Shown here in pieces: positions 43,966-56,270 of a stretch of 64,000 nt of DNA; position 1 is the stretch's first letter, and every line of letters begins with the position of its first letter. A model generated the notes under the pieces. That model was not told where the DNA came from. It did no database searches and worked only from the letters and a program-made list of their open reading frames with translations. This stretch comes from Clostridiales bacterium (GTDB lineage Bacteria > Bacillota > Clostridia > Oscillospirales > Acutalibacteraceae): contig JAAWSO010000003.1 in the NCBI GenBank assembly GCA_022801595.1, positions 1 through 64,000 on the forward strand. The letters run 5' to 3'. The position numbers were made by a program, and so were the translations under genes.

Positions 43966-46035
43966 TTATTCGTGGCCTTCCGCCTTTGCCTGCTCCATGA
44001 TCTGCTGGGCAACATGGGCGGGCGCTTCCTCATACCGGACAAAGGCAAACGTGAAGCTGCCTCTGCCCCGTGTGGTCTGGCGGATGAAGGTGGAGAAGTC
44101 GGACATCTCCGCCATCGGAACCTCCGCCTCTACGATCTGTAATCCCTCGCTGTTTGGTTCCATGCCCAGAACACGGCCCCGGCGTTTGTTCACCTCGCCC
44201 ATAATATCCCCCATGTTGTCATCCGGCACCGTGGCTTTCAAAACGCCGATTGGCTCCAGCAGAACCGGGCCGGCCTGTGGGATACCTGCTTTGTAAGCGG
44301 CGGCGGCGGCCATCTTAAAGGCCATTTCCGAGGAATCTACCGGATGGTAGGAGCCGTCATACAAGGTAGCCTTCAGGCCCACCATGGGATAGCCGGCCAA
44401 AACGCCCTTGAGCATACATTCCCGCAACCCTTTTTCCACGGCTGGGAAAAAGCCTTTTGGCACCGCGCCGCCGACAACCCGTTCGCCAAACTCCAGGCCT
44501 TCGCTGTCGCAAGGCTCAAACTCAATCCAAACGTCGCCGAACTGGCCGTGGCCGCCGGTCTGCTTCTTGTGGCGGCCTTGTACCTGCACCTTTTTGCGGA
44601 TGGTTTCCCGATAGGGTACTTTCGCTTTTTCCAAGGTCACTTCCACGCCGAACTTGCTCTTGAGCTTAGAAACAATCACATCCAAATGCTGCTCGCCCAA
44701 GCCGGAAATTACCATCTGATGGGTTTCCGCGTTGTTTTCAAAGCGGATGGTGGGGTCTTCCTCCATCAAGCGGAAAATGCCTTGGGCCACTTTATCCTCA
44801 TCGCCTTTGTTTTTGGGCAGGATGGCCATAGAAAGGGTTGGGGCCGGATATTCAACCGGGTCCAGGGTGACTTTCCGGGTTGGGGAACAGAGGGTGTCCC
44901 CGGTGTTGACACCTTGCAGTTTTGGGACGGCGCCAATATCGCCCGCGCCAATGTAATCGGCATCCTCCTGCTTCTTGCCCCGCATGGTCAGCACTTTGCC
45001 CACCCGCTCTTGGTTGCCGGTGCGCATGTTCACCAATTGGGAATCAGCGGACAGCTTGCCGGAAATCACCTTAATATAGGAAAGCTTCCCGATAAATGGG
45101 TCCACGATGGTCTTAAACACAACCGCCGCAGTGGCTCCGTCCTGGTTCACCGTCAGCTCTACCGGCTCGCCGTCTATGTCCACGCCCAGCTCGCCGCCGG
45201 TTTCGTTGGAAACGGGAGCCAGCCAAATCAGGCCGTCCAGCAGCTCATCAATGCCGTCGGTGCTTTGGGCGTCGCCGCAGAACACCGGGCTGATCTTGCC
45301 GCTTTTCACGCCTTGATGGATGCCCAAAATCACTTCCGCCGGGGTGAATTTTTCCCCGGAGAAGTATTTTTCAAACATCTCGTCGTTGGTTTCGGCTACC
45401 GCTTCATAAATGGCGGTACGCAGGCCTTCCAGCCGCGTTCCCATATCCGGCATCGACACTTCCACCGCCTTGTGGTCTTTATATTCATAAGCTTTGTATT
45501 CCAGCAGGTTGATGTAGCAGGCTACCTTGCCGTCCTGCAAAAACGGAACCACCACCGGGCAAACCGAGGGGCCAAAACTGGCTTTCAAATTCTCAAACAC
45601 TTTATAGAAATCCGCGCCCTCGTCGCACAGGCCGTTGACGAAGAAAATTTTGGCCAAGCCCCGTTTGGCAGCGGCTTTTTCCGCCTTTTCGGTGCCGACG
45701 CTGACGCCGCTTTTGCCGGATACGGTGATCAAAACCGTATCCGCCGCCCGGACAGCCTCGCACATCCCAGCTTCAAAATCGAACAGCCCAGGGGTGTCGA
45801 TAAAATTAATCTTATAATTTCTCCACTCCAAGGGCGCCACCGCAGTGGTCACAGAAGTTTTGCGGCGGATTTCCTCCTGATCATAGTCGCAAATGGTGTT
45901 GCCTTCGCTGACCTTACCCAACCGATCAGAAGCCCCCGACAGAAAGAGCATCGCTTCCGCCACGGTCGTTTTCCCGGAACCGCTATGGCCAGCAATCGCA
46001 ACATTTAAAATATTTTTCGCTTGATATTGTTTCAT
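43966..46035 (-). CDS. Elongation factor G-like GTPase (FusA2 type)
   Basis: 689-residue translational GTPase paralogue. G1 is AGHSGSGKTT at 15-24, G3 DTPG in NFIDTPGLFD near 80; the usual G4 NKxD reads FFVNGLCDEG, so the guanine-specificity motif is altered. Domains II-V of EF-G follow, with GGHGQFGDVWIEFEP near 480 and the C-terminal GRVLGMEPN. This paralogue class occurs beside normal EF-G in Clostridia and its role is unclear. Good promoter and a leader hairpin lie upstream. Confidence 0.88.
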   Translation of the reverse strand: MKQYQAKNILNVAIAGHSGSGKTTVAEAMLFLSGASDRLGKVSEGNTICDYDQEEIRRKTSVTTAVAPLEWRNYKINFIDTPGLFDFEAGMCEAVRAADTVLITVSGKSGVSVGTEKAEKAAAKRGLAKIFFVNGLCDEGADFYKVFENLKASFGPSVCPVVVPFLQDGKVACYINLLEYKAYEYKDHKAVEVSMPDMGTRLEGLRTAIYEAVAETNDEMFEKYFSGEKFTPAEVILGIHQGVKSGKISPVFCGDAQSTDGIDELLDGLIWLAPVSNETGGELGVDIDGEPVELTVNQDGATAAVVFKTIVDPFIGKLSYIKVISGKLSADSQLVNMRTGNQERVGKVLTMRGKKQEDADYIGAGDIGAVPKLQGVNTGDTLCSPTRKVTLDPVEYPAPTLSMAILPKNKGDEDKVAQGIFRLMEEDPTIRFENNAETHQMVISGLGEQHLDVIVSKLKSKFGVEVTLEKAKVPYRETIRKKVQVQGRHKKQTGGHGQFGDVWIEFEPCDSEGLEFGERVVGGAVPKGFFPAVEKGLRECMLKGVLAGYPMVGLKATLYDGSYHPVDSSEMAFKMAAAAAYKAGIPQAGPVLLEPIGVLKATVPDDNMGDIMGEVNKRRGRVLGMEPNSEGLQIVEAEVPMAEMSDFSTFIRQTTRGRGSFTFAFVRYEEAPAHVAQQIMEQAKAEGHE

Positions 46036-48752: not shown

Positions 48753-49018
48753 GTTTCCACAATTTGATTGTGGAAAGTGTGGAAAAAGGGAAAATCCTTG
48801 CTTTCCCCCACTTATTAACACTTTCCACAGGGTTTTCCACATTCTCCCCAAGGTTTTCCCCAGAAAAAGGCCCCCTCCCTTCGTTGATTACCCTTCGTAA
48901 TAATTCCATCGGATTTCCGGCCTTGCCCAAAAAATAAAATAACTGGTTGTATATTTGAATATTCCTTCCAAAAGAGAGAAAAATATTGTCAACCAAAACT
49001 TTTTCCACATTTTCCACA
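48753..49018 (+). promoter_or_regulatory. Cluster of DnaA-box-like motifs
   Basis: Seven NTTTCCACA nonamers: 48753-48761 (+), 48769-48777 (-), 48778-48786 (-), 48821-48829 (+), 48833-48841 (+), 49001-49009 (+), 49010-49018 (+). Four read TTTTCCACA, one change from the TTATCCACA consensus. The first two form an inverted repeat around ATTTGAT. The surroundings are AT-rich. Could be a DnaA-binding regulatory or titration site, or part of a replication origin. Confidence 0.45.
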
Positions 49019-49060
49019 AAGTTTTCCAACACCATTCTAAAAGAGACGAGGATGAAAAAC

Positions 49061-49324
49061 ATGATACGAGGAATCAACCGACAAATTATTGACGTACAGG
49101 ACACTGGCAGCACGTATTACGAACGGGCCTATTTGGTGGTCAAACCGGAATTCGCCAGCGCGGAACGGGAGCTTTTGGAAAAAGAAGCCCGCAAGGTTCT
49201 CAAAAGCATGGACGCCCCTTCCGGCATGAAACGGGCCAACACCAAGCTGGCTTGGTTCATCCGGCTCCTGGCTGCCGCCGGCCTGGGCGCTGGAATCATG
49301 GCGATTTGCGCGTTTGCTTTTTGA
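49061..49324 (+). CDS. Small membrane protein, conserved-type, unknown function
   Basis: 87 residues: cytoplasmic N-terminal domain with MIRGINRQIIDVQDTGSTYY and a charged helix, then a single C-terminal membrane helix (about 64-86). I know similar short proteins with an IRGxNRQxIxVxDTGxxYxER start from Clostridia, but no function. The second ATG (49061) has GAGGA 8 bases upstream; the first, at 49052, abuts it. The DnaA-box cluster ends 40 bases upstream. Confidence 0.75.
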   Translation: MIRGINRQIIDVQDTGSTYYERAYLVVKPEFASAERELLEKEARKVLKSMDAPSGMKRANTKLAWFIRLLAAAGLGAGIMAICAFAF

Positions 49325-49522: not shown

Positions 49523-50302
49523 ATGCAGGAAACGAAACATCAACGGGAATCCCAGCGGGGCGACGATATCATCGCTGGAAGAAACGCGGTCCAGGAGGCA
49601 CTGCGGTCTGGCCGGACCATCGACAGCCTATACGTTGCCCGCGGAAACCATACCGGTTCCCTGGCCGCCCTGATTGCCAAGGCGAAAGAGCAAGGCGTCG
49701 CCATTAAAGAGGCCGACGCCCGAAAGCTGGATTTCCTGTGCGGCAATGCCAACCATCAAGGGGTGGTCGCCGTGGCCGCCGTGAAGGAATACGCCTCCGT
49801 CGAGGACATGTTCACTCTGGCGCAGCAGCGCGGGGAAGCTCCCTTTATTATTCTGGCCGACGAGCTGGAAGACCCCCACAATCTAGGCGCGATTCTGCGG
49901 ACGGCCGAGTGCGCCGGCGCCCACGGCGTGATCATCCCTCGCCGCCGTTCGGTTGGCCTGACCTATGCAGTAGGCAAGGCCTCCGCCGGCGCGGTGGAAT
50001 ATGTGCCGGTTGCCCGCGTCACCAATATGGCGGCCGCCGTGGAGGAGCTTAAGGAGCGGGGGGTTTGGGTTTACGCTGCCGACCTGGACGGTGAAACCTG
50101 GTGCGGCGTGGACTATTCCGGCCCGGTGGCGCTGGTGATCGGCAACGAGGGCCATGGCGTCAGCCGCCTGGTCAAGGAAAAATCCGACTTTGTCGTCACC
50201 CTGCCCATGGCTGGCCAGATAAGCTCCCTCAACGCTTCCGTGGCCTGTGGCATTTTGTGCTACGAGGTTGCCCGGCAGCGTCAGGGATTGCGGGCCAGAT
50301 AA
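49523..50302 (+). CDS. rlmB: 23S rRNA 2'-O-ribose methyltransferase RlmB (SpoU/TrmH family)
   Basis: 259 residues: small N-terminal substrate-binding domain (about 15-90, IIAGRNAVQEAL), then the knotted SPOUT domain with motif 1 LEDPHNLGAILRTAEC, motif 2 IGNEGHGVSRL near 210 and motif 3 LNASVACGILCYE. Uses AdoMet to methylate a guanosine ribose in 23S rRNA. GAGGAG 10 bases before the ATG. Start of a plus-strand unit with the following large gene. Other TrmH-family targets are possible. Confidence 0.92.
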   Translation: MQETKHQRESQRGDDIIAGRNAVQEALRSGRTIDSLYVARGNHTGSLAALIAKAKEQGVAIKEADARKLDFLCGNANHQGVVAVAAVKEYASVEDMFTLAQQRGEAPFIILADELEDPHNLGAILRTAECAGAHGVIIPRRRSVGLTYAVGKASAGAVEYVPVARVTNMAAAVEELKERGVWVYAADLDGETWCGVDYSGPVALVIGNEGHGVSRLVKEKSDFVVTLPMAGQISSLNASVACGILCYEVARQRQGLRAR

Positions 50303-50385
50303 AGCTTCCCACCCCGAACCTGGTTGTTTCCAATCGAACCAACTTGTGAGGAATGTTTAACGACCGATTTAGGAGCGTAGAGTAT

Positions 50386-53300
50386 ATGATGAAAAACAAG
50401 AAAAAGAAAGCTGCGCAGGCATTGGAGGATCAAGATCTGTACGAGGAAATCATGTCGGAGGCCAAGCGTCTCCGCACCCTCGACAACATCAAGGAACGCC
50501 CCAACTCGGTGCGGACCCGTCCGGCCGAGCAGCCTGCCCCGGAAAAACCGGCTTCTCCTCCTGCTGCTCCGGAGATCCCCCAGCCTCCTATGCCGGAGGT
50601 TCCCCAGCAGCCTCAGCGGCCGTCGGGCAATGAGATTTCCGCCCAAGCGCCCGTCAAGGAAAAAAAGAAAAAAGGATTCTCCTGGTTTCACAAAAAGAAA
50701 AAGACAGAAGAATTCGACGATTGGATTCCCGATACTGGGGAGGAAACCGACGATATTTACTACGGCTTGAAATTAAAGCCCATTGAGGAATACAAAAAGG
50801 AATATGAGGCAAGCGGACGCAGCCAGACGGCCAGCGAGCCCACCTCTTCCTTCGCTTACCTGTTCGACCGGACCCAGCAGCTCCCCGACCTTTCGGAAAA
50901 ATTTGAGGAATTGCACAAGGAACGGCAGGAACGGGTCGCCCAAGCCGCTTTGGAAGCCGGTGTGGAAACCGACGATATTTTCTCCTTGTGTAAGGAAAAA
51001 AGCGACCTGGATTTCGACTATGACGAATGGAAGCGGAATACCCAGTCGATCCCGATTATCAAAGAAGCAGATTTAGCCGCTGCGCAGGCCGCGCAAACCA
51101 CGGCGCAGTCGGAGCCGGTTGCCCAACCTGCCCCAGCCGCTCAGCCGGTGATGGACGCCACTCCGACGCCGTCCGCCCCAATGGGGACAGAAGCTTTGGA
51201 AGCTGCCGCTGCCACGGCGGTTTCCCCACAGCCCGAACCGGCGGCGCAATCCCAGCCCCAGCCGGTTTCCGCCCAGGATGACCTGCCAATCGATCCACCG
51301 GCAGCCGTCAGCTCCGACACCTTGCAGTTTAAGGTGCTCAACCGCTTCCCCAACGGCCTGAAAAAGCCGGAAACCCGGCTGCCGGTGGAAGTGAACGCTT
51401 CCGACTCCATAGAAGCCAAAGAACTGGAAGTGGAACAATTGATCCAGCAAGCGCTGAATCAAGTCAAGTCCACCAGCTCCATTTTCGAGCGGGTCGCCCG
51501 TTCTTCCCAGGATGATATTCTGGATATCCTGGAGGAATCCTCCATAGGCACGCCAGAGCCGCAAACCGTTTCGGAGATTGCGCAAAACATTTCCGAAAAT
51601 ACCCATAAGGAAGCCCTTTCTGACATCGAACAAGCGGTGGAAGCCGCCCAGGCAGAAACAGCAGTCAAAATCGACGAAATGCCTCAGCCAGCCGTTCCAG
51701 CCCCTGAACCGGAGGTTCCCGCCCCCAAAGAGCCGCTGGATCGTTACCGCTTCCATCAGCGTCCCGTTCGTATCTTTAAACTGACCAACGTGGACAAGAT
51801 TGTGGAGGAGGAAATCAAAAATTTTATTGTCCCTCCAGCCGTGTCCAACCCAGTCCCGCTCCCATCTCCCCAGTCGGAAAGCCAACCAGCTTTTTCCGAG
51901 CCGGCGGAAACGACCGGGCCTGATACCACGGAACCTATGCCGAAGACTGTACCTCCTGCCCCAGAAGGCGCCCAGGCACAGCCTCCAGCAGCCGCGGCCG
52001 GAGAGGGCAGCACCCGTTCCATGCCAAAAATCACTCCCATACCCTTGAAAAAGCCAGATTTCCAGCCGCCCCAAGCGGATTTGGAACCGCCGGCAGAAAA
52101 AACCTCCCAGCATTCGGAGCCTTTGCTTTCCCGCCATCGAAAGCGCAATAAATTTGAATTACCGCCGGAGGATGGCGAACCGGTACATAAAAAGAAACGG
52201 TTCCTCTTAAAAGGAGACGACGAGGAAGACAACGATCCTGAGGATGAATTCCAGCCGCCTTTGCCGGAACTGGAGGATTACAACAGTCCCGACGACATCG
52301 GCGCGGTCTCTACGGAGCTAAACGCCAGCGTCCGGGAGCTTACCCTGCGGATGCTGGTCGCCGGCCTTTGCTCCGTTATTTCAGTAGGGATCGGTTTTGC
52401 ATTTGAATGGTTCTTATGGAATCAGAACCTTTCTTTGGTATACCTGATTTTGAATCTGGTCTTTCTTTTGATTCCGTCCGCTTTCTGTTACATGACCATA
52501 TTCCACGGGATTCGTTCCCTAGTCAAGCTGCAGGCCAGCTCCGACAGCAGCGTAGCGGTGGCTCTTTTGGCCGGGATTATTCACGCGGTTTCCTTGTTCT
52601 TTGCCCAAGGCGATGTGATGCATGGCAATATCCATTTGTATTCGTCCATCGCGATTGGGGCCCTTTTCCTCAATACCCTGGGTAAATTCTCTATGGTATA
52701 CCGGATCCGAAAAAACTTTAAATTTATTACCTCGTCGGAAAGCCGGTGCAGCGTGGAAATATACGACGACTATAACATTGCCATTCAGCTAGCCAAAGAC
52801 TGCATTTCCGAAACGCCCCATATCGCCTATCAGCGGAGAACCCGGTTCCTAAAAGGGTTCCTGCGGAATTCCTATGAGCCGGACCCCAGCGAAAACACCT
52901 CTCAAATCGTGGCGCCGATTGCGTTCGTGGCCTCTCTGGTTCTGTGTATCGTATGCAGCATCATTACCGGAAACGCCATCAGCGGCCTGACTGCCTTTGC
53001 CGTTGCCACCTGTATTTGTACCCCGATTGCCAACATGCTTTGCGTCAATCTGCCCATCGCCCGGCTCTGCCGGATTGCCCGGCAAAACGGCGCTATGATG
53101 GTCGGGTACAAGACCATTGAAGCGGTCAGCGAAACCAACGCCGTAATGGTGGATTCCACCGACCTATTCCCAAAAGGCTCCATTTCCCTGAGCGGCATGA
53201 AAACCTTTGGCGAAAAGCGGATTGACCGGGCGATTCTGGACGCTGCCGCTTTGATGTCCGCCACAGGCGGCACCCTGCGGGAAGTCTTTGAAACGGTGAT

Positions 53301-53985
53301 TGAGGAACGTAAGGGCAAGCTGCCGCCTGTGGAAAATGTAAAATATGAGGACAAGGCCGGCATCATCGGCTGGGTCGCCGGCAAACAGATTTTGGTCGGC
53401 AACCGGGAGATGCTTCACAAGTATCATGTCAACCCGCCGGAATTGGACTTTGAGCGGCAATATGTCAGCAGAAGCAAACAAGTCATTTACCTTGCTGTGG
53501 AGCGGGAACTGGTGGCTATGTTTATCCTGACCTATGAGCCGGACCGGAAAATGGCCTTAGAAATCCAGCGTTTGGAGCAAAACGGCATTGCCATGATCGT
53601 GCGCACGCTGGACCCCAACATCACGCCGGAATTCCTGGCCAAACGGTTCGACTTAGACCCAAGAGCCATTCATATCCTGCCCTCCCGGCTGGGCGAACAC
53701 TGCGACAACGCCCTCAACGAGATTGCGGAGGAAGCGGACGTTACTCTGGCAACCAGGGGCAAAGCGTATTCCATGATGCGGATGCTGGCTGCCTGTATCC
53801 GTCAAAAAGGGAACATTTCCATCGCGGTGGTCTTGCAAACAGTTTCCATTATTTTAGGCTTTGTGCTGGTTGCCTTCTTTGCCTGCTGCTCCGCGTTTGG
53901 ACAGCTTAGCACCCTGGCAATCCTCATTTATGAGCTGTTCTGGAGCCTGACCATCCTGCTCATCCCCCGCATCCGAAGACCCTAA
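50386..53985 (+). CDS. Degenerate P-type ATPase-like membrane protein with long disordered N-terminus
   Basis: 1199 residues. Residues about 1-650 are cytoplasmic, rich in Pro, Ala, Glu and Lys, with poly-Lys patches (KKKK) and repeated ETDDIxx motifs, and appear mostly disordered. Then a P1B-like membrane part: helices near 654, 680, 718, 745, 841 and 863, with CICTP near 875 where metal ATPases have CPC. The cytoplasmic domain after helix 6 has VDSTDLFPKG (D near 922) in place of DKTGTLT; the later TGD and GDGxND motifs are lost too (VRTLDPNIT, GEHCDNAL). Two helices near 1145 and 1172 end the protein. So it keeps the fold but probably not the pump cycle. Likely a scaffold or sensor; role unknown. 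ATG at 50386 follows AGGAG. Ends at repeat R5. Confidence 0.8.
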   Translation: MMKNKKKKAAQALEDQDLYEEIMSEAKRLRTLDNIKERPNSVRTRPAEQPAPEKPASPPAAPEIPQPPMPEVPQQPQRPSGNEISAQAPVKEKKKKGFSWFHKKKKTEEFDDWIPDTGEETDDIYYGLKLKPIEEYKKEYEASGRSQTASEPTSSFAYLFDRTQQLPDLSEKFEELHKERQERVAQAALEAGVETDDIFSLCKEKSDLDFDYDEWKRNTQSIPIIKEADLAAAQAAQTTAQSEPVAQPAPAAQPVMDATPTPSAPMGTEALEAAAATAVSPQPEPAAQSQPQPVSAQDDLPIDPPAAVSSDTLQFKVLNRFPNGLKKPETRLPVEVNASDSIEAKELEVEQLIQQALNQVKSTSSIFERVARSSQDDILDILEESSIGTPEPQTVSEIAQNISENTHKEALSDIEQAVEAAQAETAVKIDEMPQPAVPAPEPEVPAPKEPLDRYRFHQRPVRIFKLTNVDKIVEEEIKNFIVPPAVSNPVPLPSPQSESQPAFSEPAETTGPDTTEPMPKTVPPAPEGAQAQPPAAAAGEGSTRSMPKITPIPLKKPDFQPPQADLEPPAEKTSQHSEPLLSRHRKRNKFELPPEDGEPVHKKKRFLLKGDDEEDNDPEDEFQPPLPELEDYNSPDDIGAVSTELNASVRELTLRMLVAGLCSVISVGIGFAFEWFLWNQNLSLVYLILNLVFLLIPSAFCYMTIFHGIRSLVKLQASSDSSVAVALLAGIIHAVSLFFAQGDVMHGNIHLYSSIAIGALFLNTLGKFSMVYRIRKNFKFITSSESRCSVEIYDDYNIAIQLAKDCISETPHIAYQRRTRFLKGFLRNSYEPDPSENTSQIVAPIAFVASLVLCIVCSIITGNAISGLTAFAVATCICTPIANMLCVNLPIARLCRIARQNGAMMVGYKTIEAVSETNAVMVDSTDLFPKGSISLSGMKTFGEKRIDRAILDAAALMSATGGTLREVFETVIEERKGKLPPVENVKYEDKAGIIGWVAGKQILVGNREMLHKYHVNPPELDFERQYVSRSKQVIYLAVERELVAMFILTYEPDRKMALEIQRLEQNGIAMIVRTLDPNITPEFLAKRFDLDPRAIHILPSRLGEHCDNALNEIAEEADVTLATRGKAYSMMRMLAACIRQKGNISIAVVLQTVSIILGFVLVAFFACCSAFGQLSTLAILIYELFWSLTILLIPRIRRP

Positions 53986-54236: not shown

Positions 54237-54265
54237 TTGACAAGAAAACCTGTATGTAGTATAGT
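54237..54265 (+). promoter_or_regulatory. Promoter of the GntR/ABC operon
   Basis: TTGACA (54237-54242), 17 bases, TATAGT (54260-54265), about 45 bases before the GntR start. Confidence 0.75.
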
Positions 54266-54311: not shown

Positions 54312-54680
54312 ATGCATCTGGATCATAAGAGTGAAATCCCCATCTACCTGCAAATCGCTAGGGAGATTGAGGACGCCATTTTCATCGGTGCGTTTGAAGA
54401 AGAAACCCAAATCCCCTCCACCACGGAAATTTCTATGAGCCTGAAGATCAATCCGGCTACGGTGCTCAAAGGCATCAATCTTCTGGTGGACGAGGGCATC
54501 ATCTATAAGAAACGAGGGCTTGGCATGTTTGTTTGCGAAGGCGCGTCCACAACCATCAAAGAAAAACGGCAAAAAGAATTTTATCAAAACTATGTAAAAC
54601 CATTGATTTCCGAAGCAAAAAAACTAGATCTCCAGCTCCCGGAAATGATGAAGCTGCTAGAAAGAGGGTTTGAAGAATGA
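54312..54680 (+). CDS. GntR-family (YtrA/YhcF type) transcriptional regulator
   Basis: 122 residues: winged helix-turn-helix (about 10-76, IPIYLQIAREIEDAI ... PSTTEISMSLKINPATVLKG) and a short helical tail, the YtrA subfamily layout that lacks a large ligand domain. Such regulators repress their own ABC transporter operons and often respond to wall-active antibiotics. GAGGTGG before the ATG. ATGA overlap with the ATPase gene. Confidence 0.92.
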   Translation: MHLDHKSEIPIYLQIAREIEDAIFIGAFEEETQIPSTTEISMSLKINPATVLKGINLLVDEGIIYKKRGLGMFVCEGASTTIKEKRQKEFYQNYVKPLISEAKKLDLQLPEMMKLLERGFEE

Positions 54681-55546
54681 ACCGAATCGAAGTGAAAAAC
54701 GTCAACAAAAGCTTCCAGGGGAATCCCGTGTTGAAACAGATCAACCTGACCCTGGAGGAAGGCAAAATCTATGGCCTTCTGGGGCGCAACGGAGCCGGAA
54801 AATCCACCCTGCTCAACATCATCAACAACCGCCTGTTCGCCGACAGCGGCGAAGTCCGCATCAATGGCAGGAACGCCGTGGAAAACGACCTGGCGCAAGG
54901 CAATCTTTATTTCATGACGGAAGGTTCCACCTACCCCAAGGATATGACCGTCAAGCGGGTATTCCGCTGGACCAAGGAGTTTTATGGCGGTTTTGACGAC
55001 GCTTATGCCGCTTATTTGGGGGATCTCTTTCAACTGAACGTCAAGAAAAAGGTGGGCCAGCTTTCCACCGGCTATTCCTCCATTTTTAAAATCATCACCG
55101 CCCTGTGCGTGGATGTGCCCTATGTATTCCTGGATGAGCCGGTGCTGGGCCTAGACGCCAACCATCGGGATATGTTCTACAAAATCCTGATGGAATCCTA
55201 CCTGAAAAAGCCCCGTACCATCGTGATTTCCACCCACTTGATCGAGGAAATTTCAGGTCTTCTGGAACATGTCATCATCATTAAGGATGGCAGCGTGATC
55301 CGGGATCAATCCTGTGAGGAACTGACCCATTCCGGGTTTACGGTCAGCGGGAAATCCGGTGAAGTAGACGCGTTTATCCAGGGCAAAGAGGTGCTTGGCG
55401 CGGATGTGATCGGCGGCCTGAAAACCGCTTATGTTCTGGGCCAAGTAGACCGGCCGGTTGGAGACTTGGAAGTTTCCCCTTTGGACCTGCAAAAATTATT
55501 CATTCAACTCACCGCTTCCCCAGGAGGTATCCACTATGAAAATTAA
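54677..55546 (+). CDS. ABC transporter ATP-binding protein
   Basis: 289 residues. Walker A GRNGAGKST at 36-44, Walker B YVFLDEPVLGLD near 150-160, switch His in STHLIEEI near 185. The signature is LSTGYSS instead of LSGGQ, as is frequent in the YtrB/BcrA-like exporters. A C-terminal extension of about 60 residues is strand-rich. Pairs with the permease, whose start lies inside its 3' end (11 bases). Confidence 0.92.
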   Translation: MNRIEVKNVNKSFQGNPVLKQINLTLEEGKIYGLLGRNGAGKSTLLNIINNRLFADSGEVRINGRNAVENDLAQGNLYFMTEGSTYPKDMTVKRVFRWTKEFYGGFDDAYAAYLGDLFQLNVKKKVGQLSTGYSSIFKIITALCVDVPYVFLDEPVLGLDANHRDMFYKILMESYLKKPRTIVISTHLIEEISGLLEHVIIIKDGSVIRDQSCEELTHSGFTVSGKSGEVDAFIQGKEVLGADVIGGLKTAYVLGQVDRPVGDLEVSPLDLQKLFIQLTASPGGIHYEN

Positions 55547-56270
55547 GTCCGCCGTCAAATACCAAATTGTTGAGCTTCGATACGGCTTGATCATCGTTTA
55601 CGCCATTATCTACGCGCTCCTGATTTTCCAAATCATCATCAATGAGAGCATGAACAATATTTCGGTTTCCAGCACTGAATTTTCTACCTGTGGATTTCTG
55701 CTGATTTGGGGAGCCTTAACCATGCGGGTTCAATTCTCCTTTTTCCTGCAAAACGGCGTTTCCCGCAACACCCAGTTTGTGAGCAATGTGGCCAACAGTA
55801 CGATTCTTTCGGTGGGCATGTCTCTGGTGGCTTCTCTCAACGTGTTGATTTTACGGCTGATTTGCGGCCAATCCGGCTTTGCCTTTCAGAAGATGTATTC
55901 CGCGTTTTACCCAGACGGCTACACCGTCCGCACCTTTTTCGAGGGCTTGCTCTGGTTGGTATGCGCCCACTTATTCTGCGCTATGCTAGGACTTTTCCTC
56001 TCTACCCTCTACTACCGGATGAATAAAATCACGAAAATTATCGTTTCCGCCGGCGTGCCCGCTCTGCTGCTTTTGGGGCTTCCTCTATTTGACATCAACG
56101 TCACCCACGGCGTGATCATCCAAAGCATCGGAAAAGCTTTTCTATTTATCATGGGCTTCTTCAACGGCAACTGCAACCCCTACTATGCCGTGGTTTCTTT
56201 CACCGTCCTAGCCATGATTTTCGCCGGCCTGAGCTACCTGCTCCTGCGCCGCGCCATAATTCGAAAATAA
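55536..56270 (+). CDS. ABC transporter permease
   Basis: 244 residues with six predicted membrane helices (near 18-40, 55-72, 85-110, 138-160, 168-190 and 212-240), ABC-2-like. AGGAGGT lies 6 bases before the ATG. Substrate is not evident; the GntR/YtrA context suggests an exporter induced by envelope stress. Confidence 0.88.
   Translation: MKIKSAVKYQIVELRYGLIIVYAIIYALLIFQIIINESMNNISVSSTEFSTCGFLLIWGALTMRVQFSFFLQNGVSRNTQFVSNVANSTILSVGMSLVASLNVLILRLICGQSGFAFQKMYSAFYPDGYTVRTFFEGLLWLVCAHLFCAMLGLFLSTLYYRMNKITKIIVSAGVPALLLLGLPLFDINVTHGVIIQSIGKAFLFIMGFFNGNCNPYYAVVSFTVLAMIFAGLSYLLLRRAIIRK

Follow-up and report, generated by a model that had tools for sequence, protein, structure and literature searches.

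Passages of PMC13322241 describe human ERMA/TMEM94 as a protein of P-type fold with DKQGIL in place of DKTGTL, GSSANL in place of GDGVND and without a canonical TGES. Uptake of Mg2+ with ATP is reported there and is abolished by D427N; according to the same passages, all structures show the nucleotide pocket closed to Mg-ATP. This precedent cautions that activity can still be claimed for P-type folds with degenerate motifs. The gene described here, the pseudo-pump gene, encodes a bacterial protein of related fold and lies in a stretch of 64,000 nucleotides (the window) from contig JAAWSO010000003.1 of a Clostridiales bacterium. No paper on its family was found among the open-licence papers of PMC, which is no proof of absence from print, and among 29 term-matched passages of a P-type ATPase review (PMC10654040), none of the 12 listed describes such proteins. 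Of 355 matches, the 120 listed carry the source names "hypothetical protein", "HAD family hydrolase" and "membrane protein of unknown function", with a single "copper-transporting P-type ATPase".

The pseudo-pump is related to the P1B pumps at the level of sequence profile and predicted fold. Loss of its catalytic chemistry is strongly supported by the aligned motif columns, and the gene is under strong purifying selection. The reading favoured, by a modest balance of probability, is a membrane protein of predicted P1B fold, without catalytic motifs, that would act as a non-pumping scaffold or receptor.

The open reading frame (ORF) is open from 50353 to 53985 (+) and gives 1210 amino acids when counted from 50353. 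ATG 50386 is preferred over 50353 because AGGAG sits 10 nucleotides 5' of it and the alignment with a close homologue (P0002) begins there; from these signals it is most likely the true start, and residue numbers count from it. Parts of the gene and protein are as follows.

50386..53985, +: whole gene, 1199 amino acids from ATG 50386.
50386..52281, +: N-terminal tail, residues 1-632, rich in Pro, Glu, Ala and Lys (composition; predicted local distance difference test, pLDDT, mostly below 50).
52288..52728, +: predicted membrane helices 1-4, MA, MB, M1 and M2 of P1B pumps (AlphaFold model).
52729..52884, +: shrunken remnant of the actuator (A) domain, about 52 residues, without TGE (AlphaFold model, motif search).
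52885..53085, +: predicted membrane helices 5-6, M3 and M4, with CICTPIA inside (AlphaFold model).
53152..53172, +: DSTDLFP in the DKTGTLT position (read directly; 108-member alignment).
53182..53535, +: domain of nucleotide-binding (N) type, Gly replacing the HP histidine (structure match 2voy_J, root-mean-square deviation 2.2 over 116).
53353..53415, +: GIIG and GN glycines, G992 and G1005, the only two invariant columns of a 47-sequence order-wide alignment.
53602..53625, +: RTLDPNIT in the TGD region, with the Asp kept.
53764..53973, +: predicted membrane helices 7-8, M5 and M6, the preceding GDGxxD loop missing (AlphaFold model).

The heavy-metal P-type ATPase family TIGR01525 of NCBIfam matches the region of the phosphorylation (P) and N domains with an expectation value (E) of 3e-14. 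The score, 52.8 bits, lies below the curated family cut-off of 346.25; 36 of the 47 order-wide members match at 1e-3. The best sequence match among solved structures is the copper pump CopA (PDB 3rfu, E 3.6e-10), also in the P/N region. The AlphaFold model has the P1B fold and the eight-helix P1B layout, the eight membrane helices being read off the model and by comparison with P1B pumps. Profile and fold searches thus point to P1B pumps and agree with the topology that a first-pass annotation had proposed from the letters of the window. An origin unrelated to P-type ATPases is ruled out by the TIGR01525 and 3rfu matches and the predicted fold. A Pfam scan of the protein gives nothing over cut-off, no metal-binding domain exceeds the Pfam or NCBIfam cut-off, and no match occurs in a phage family library. 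On the tree, the 47 members split with a support of 1.0 from five pumps of the window's own genome.

Catalytic columns were counted over 108 members aligned to the family profile, after removal of duplicate loci (L007, L008, L012, L013, L014); the locus sets are non-independent samples, and L069 and L084, identical in sequence, are both counted. The phosphorylation motif DKTGT is present in 0 of 108 members. DSTDLFP is read in its place in the window, as had been noted, and the recent decay that intact relatives would have indicated is not seen; the loss is more than chance. At the first place of DKTGTLT, Asp is present in 80 members and absent in 28. Lys never occurs at the second (Lys) place, where the residues are Ala (64), Asp (22), Ser (18), Glu (3) and Ile (1); the fourth (Gly) place is Asp in 60, Glu in 39 and never Gly; the sixth is Phe in 104 and the seventh Pro in 102. 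Within M4, CICTPIA (53011-53031, +) replaces SCPCA. The annotated position of CICTP at the CPC place is correct, but the residues aligned to CPC are T-P-I, which keep the Pro and lose both Cys. Across the family Cys occurs once at the first place of CPC and once at the second, and the central Pro is kept in 73; CPx strings are present in some members, away from the catalytic place. The HP His column of the N domain holds Gly (82), Ser (17) or another residue (9), and no His. No TGE is found in the A region, the TGE[SP] strings of some members falling within the tail or where the C-terminal part begins. TGD and GDGxND had both been called gone. This stands for GDGxND, since no GDGxxD loop was found in place and the two chance matches (L025, L020) are both elsewhere in the head; the TGD Gly is lost too, but its Asp is kept in 105 members and its Thr in 75. 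The P-domain Lys column after the TGD region, where the alignment is less certain, holds Leu (68), Lys (1), a gap (4) or another residue (35). For two pumps from the window's genome, all four motif tests are positive.

Of the glycines, the second of GxG and that of GN are each kept in 107 of the 108 members, the remaining one being a gap; the first Gly of GxG is kept in 50 and the Asn of GN in 51. Among the next best kept in the 47-sequence alignment are the TGD Asp (46/47), the F-P of LFP, Y1050, W1186 and the M4 prolines. The invariant glycines hint at a kept nucleotide pocket.

Forty-four member pairs have identities of 78-99.5%. The ratio of non-synonymous to synonymous substitution rates (dN/dS), calculated for the 14 closest with the L069/L084 pair repeated, is 0.016-0.10 for the pseudo-pump part (14 pairs) and 0.10-0.28 for the tail (12 pairs with a sufficiently long tail). 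Values of 0.016-0.10 are not those of decay.

Residues 1-628 have mostly pLDDT < 50 in the AlphaFold model, with several short helices among them. A disordered, Pro/Ala/Glu/Lys-rich tail of 650 residues had been proposed; composition and predicted disorder agree, the length being about 630. Short motifs within disordered tails usually bind partners. Those of the window are listed below; conservation refers to alignment A4, 51 sequences from genera near the window's genus.

50437..50463, +: LYEEIMSEA, N-terminal short helix motif, taken as a local variant of [FY]S[LIV][DE][DE]IL.E (predicted helix 12-36).
50749..50778, +: DDIYYGLKLK (D123, Y125, Y126, G127 and L130 conserved at at least 90%).
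50857..50868, +: YLFD (L159 and F160 conserved at at least 90%).
50965..50988, +: ETDDIFSL, second short motif of the first-pass annotation (DIFS is a majority motif only).

Ile22 of LYEEIMSEA and R180 and R183 of the tail are likewise conserved at at least 90%. Two short motifs had been put forward for conservation across genera: residues of DIYYGL reach at least 90%, and DIFS falls short, as a majority motif only. The motif [FY]S[LIV][DE][DE]IL.E, not named earlier, stands near the N terminus and is common to many families of the order in the tails read. A looser version of it is present in 63 of 102 tails, within their first 140 residues; shuffled tails would give 0.2. A codon pattern of the strict motif gave 5 matches in 31 genomes, 4 in the pseudo-pump gene and 1 in another ORF, which we take to be a transposase. 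Nothing here suggests that other proteins share the motif as a module, but the strict pattern reached it in only 4 of the 31 genomes. A second, FliM-like motif was present in 2 of 4 copies inspected but matched in 1 of 102 tails, and was dropped. The tail of L044, at the start of its locus, carries near-identical tandem repeats of about 14 residues each.

Two neighbours of the pseudo-pump gene recur.

49523..50302, +: rlmB, 23S rRNA Gm2251 methyltransferase, upstream of the pseudo-pump gene (family match).
43966-46035, -: EF-G-like paralogue, in the window upstream of the pseudo-pump gene and on the opposite strand.

In the window, the + strand between rlmB and the pseudo-pump gene shows neither a terminator-like nor a promoter-like site. 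Of 102 informative loci (108 minus six with too little upstream sequence), 101 have rlmB upstream in the same orientation; the exception, L060, has 681 nucleotides of upstream sequence and no rlmB match. In 96 loci the rlmB match either overlaps the open frame or ends no more than 120 nucleotides from it; the distance is 215 and 365 nucleotides in two loci and 728-1098 nucleotides in L015, L024 and L038, where the gene is broken into two ORFs, with the tail piece between rlmB and the membrane part. No ORF of at least 200 amino acids with DKTGT is present in the fetched neighbourhoods. The coupling to rlmB rather than to metal genes, proposed from the window, is far stronger in these loci than one window shows. 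Sequence of at least 3 kilobases (kb) is available downstream in 92 of the 108 loci. An EF-G-like gene (NF009381) is found downstream of the pseudo-pump gene and on its strand in 36 loci, of which seven carry distant family members (profile score < 400); in 5 loci it is upstream on the opposite strand.

The order is taken as Oscillospirales, as inferred from named loci (two placed in Acutalibacteraceae and Oscillospiraceae). Up to 3 candidates per genome were scored in the order-wide and class searches and up to 11 in the phylum sample. Profile A2 has some match in all 395 near-complete genomes of the order, and in 385 at E 1e-50 or better, a figure read off the match listing and not a scripted count; G690 and G710 carry a divergent copy behind rlmB, which brings the total to 387 of 395. 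The contig of G027 ends about 420 bases past the rlmB match and is therefore uninformative. G104, G063, G090, G133, G624, G715 and G737 have neither a clear member nor a clear rlmB, a joint absence of 7 in 395 that is roughly the assembly-gap expectation, itself a rough estimate from listed completeness values. G063 and G133 belong to one genus; joint loss is possible there, but assembly gaps would also account for the pair. A search with the narrower profile A1 found the family in 177 of 197 genomes of the order. Outside the order, no match among 373 genomes of the class is better than 2.9e-40 (11 have none at all), while 17 of 18 order members in the same search are at 2.6e-103 or better; none of 117 phylum genomes outside the order is better than 1.2e-37. 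The outside-order matches listed span only the region shared with true pumps. Descent of the pseudo-pump gene from one that follows rlmB outside the order found no support: at 8 rlmB loci (about 3.5 kb) of one other order, no ORF of at least 100 amino acids matches the family profile. The genes of these loci presumably resemble yacP, sigH, thyX and mrnC.

According to the scaffold or receptor reading, the eight predicted membrane helices would anchor the protein, the rigid P/N head may bind nucleotide without phosphorylation, and the long, predicted-disordered tail would capture a cytosolic partner through the conserved short helix. Under it the protein would not transport, would bind nucleotide, would use its tail to catch the partner and would be co-expressed with RlmB. 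Several points weigh against it. Conservation of the nucleotide pocket is partial: the HP His is gone, and the first Gly of GxG and the Asn of GN each stand in about half of the members, as counted above. The invariant glycines may therefore be structural. Asp at the phosphorylation place in 80 members leaves room for unusual catalysis. The loosened tail motif is missed by 39 of 102 tails, the window's LYEEIMSEA among them, and its form was shaped on the same sequences in which it was later counted. Finally, the receptor or scaffold role is inferred, with hypothetical partner, ligand and phenotype. The earlier picture of a repurposed, non-pumping protein thus holds for P1B derivation, catalytic degeneracy and linkage to rlmB, its receptor or scaffold part being conjectural.

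A ribosome or translation link, drawn because of the neighbouring genes (rlmB upstream, EF-G-like gene downstream in 36 loci), is a weak lead. Built on it is the alternative that the protein, produced together with RlmB, would serve the translation machinery as a receptor in the membrane, where it would tether ribosomes, their maturation factors or a translation GTPase and signal their state; this is unlikely but has a real chance. It draws on rlmB upstream in 101 of 102 loci, on the same strand being shared in all 36 loci with an EF-G-like gene downstream, and on the seven genomes with no clear copy of either the pseudo-pump gene or rlmB. Neighbours may, however, share merely a transcription unit, the seven joint absences are no more than assembly gaps would give on the rough estimate above, the EF-G-like gene of the window lies elsewhere, upstream on the opposite strand, and no known domain exceeds the Pfam or NCBIfam cut-off. 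That the protein still transports, through an unconventional cycle such as the one claimed for ERMA/TMEM94, is distinctly unlikely. The reported ATP-dependent Mg2+ uptake by a degenerate loop, lost in D427N, speaks for it (passages of PMC13322241), as does the Asp kept in 80 of 108; Asp is nevertheless absent in 28, Lys, Gly and HP His are absent in all 108 and each CPC Cys in 107, the A domain is shrunk to a remnant of about 52 residues, and the ERMA case is itself open, all its structures showing the closed pocket. A regulatory role, in which the protein would pair with a genuine P-type pump in its cell, is very unlikely: the window's genome has five P-type ATPase matches above the family cut-off, and MgtA is reportedly a dimeric P-type pump (title of PMC10925321), but no DKTGT ORF of at least 200 amino acids lies in the fetched neighbourhoods. 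A decaying pump heading to a pseudogene is hardly credible, for although catalytic motifs are lost, L015 (G022) has one internal stop codon and L024 and L038 carry tail and membrane part as separate ORFs, recent decay is ruled out by dN/dS of 0.016-0.10 and DKTGT in 0 of 108, and the gene is retained order-wide. The split copies (L015, L024, L038) may be real or assembly errors; L038 contains a run of N.

The scaffold or receptor reading can be carried further, and the extended version is unlikely: in the order's ancestor a metal pump would have shed its chemistry to become a membrane hub that senses nucleotides, is produced with RlmB and couples the state of translation to the membrane via its disordered tail, a core and order-defining component. 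A P-type pump fold kept under strong selection across the order without its catalytic motifs would be a new use for one of the best-studied transport folds. The pseudo-pump gene marks an unexplained core function because it is near-universal in the near-complete genomes of the order examined, fixed in place and mostly named without function in the sources listed, and it is directly testable because of its place beside rlmB and its defined motifs.

Two further features of the window are notable. Before rlmB (49013-49324, +) lies the gene of a small protein of about 103 amino acids with one likely membrane helix; this protein has no Pfam or NCBIfam match, and members of its cluster are present in 12 loci. 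Downstream of the pseudo-pump gene (54312-56270, +), genes for a GntR-type regulator, an ABC ATPase and a membrane protein make up a transporter unit that is likely unrelated, with a promoter-like site at 54237.

Compared with known systems, the pseudo-pump is closest to the P1B ATPases (CopA, ATP7B, ZntA), with which it shares the predicted helix order, the P/N head and the whole fold at a weak sequence match. Unlike them, the protein of the window is without DKTGT, TGE, CPC, HP His, P-domain Lys and GDGxxD, and has a shrunken A domain, a long predicted-disordered tail and no metal-binding domain over cut-off. MgtA, KdpB and other P-type pumps share the general fold at lower Z scores (about 12-14), a comparison at fold level, and differ by DKTGT, absent in the pseudo-pump family. 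ERMA/TMEM94, compared through motifs published in passages of PMC13322241, shares the P-type fold, the degenerate phosphorylation loop and the loss of GDGVND and TGES. It keeps DK and is claimed as a transporter, whereas the pseudo-pump family is bacterial, P1B-like in fold, and loses the Lys in 108 of 108 members and the Asp in 28.
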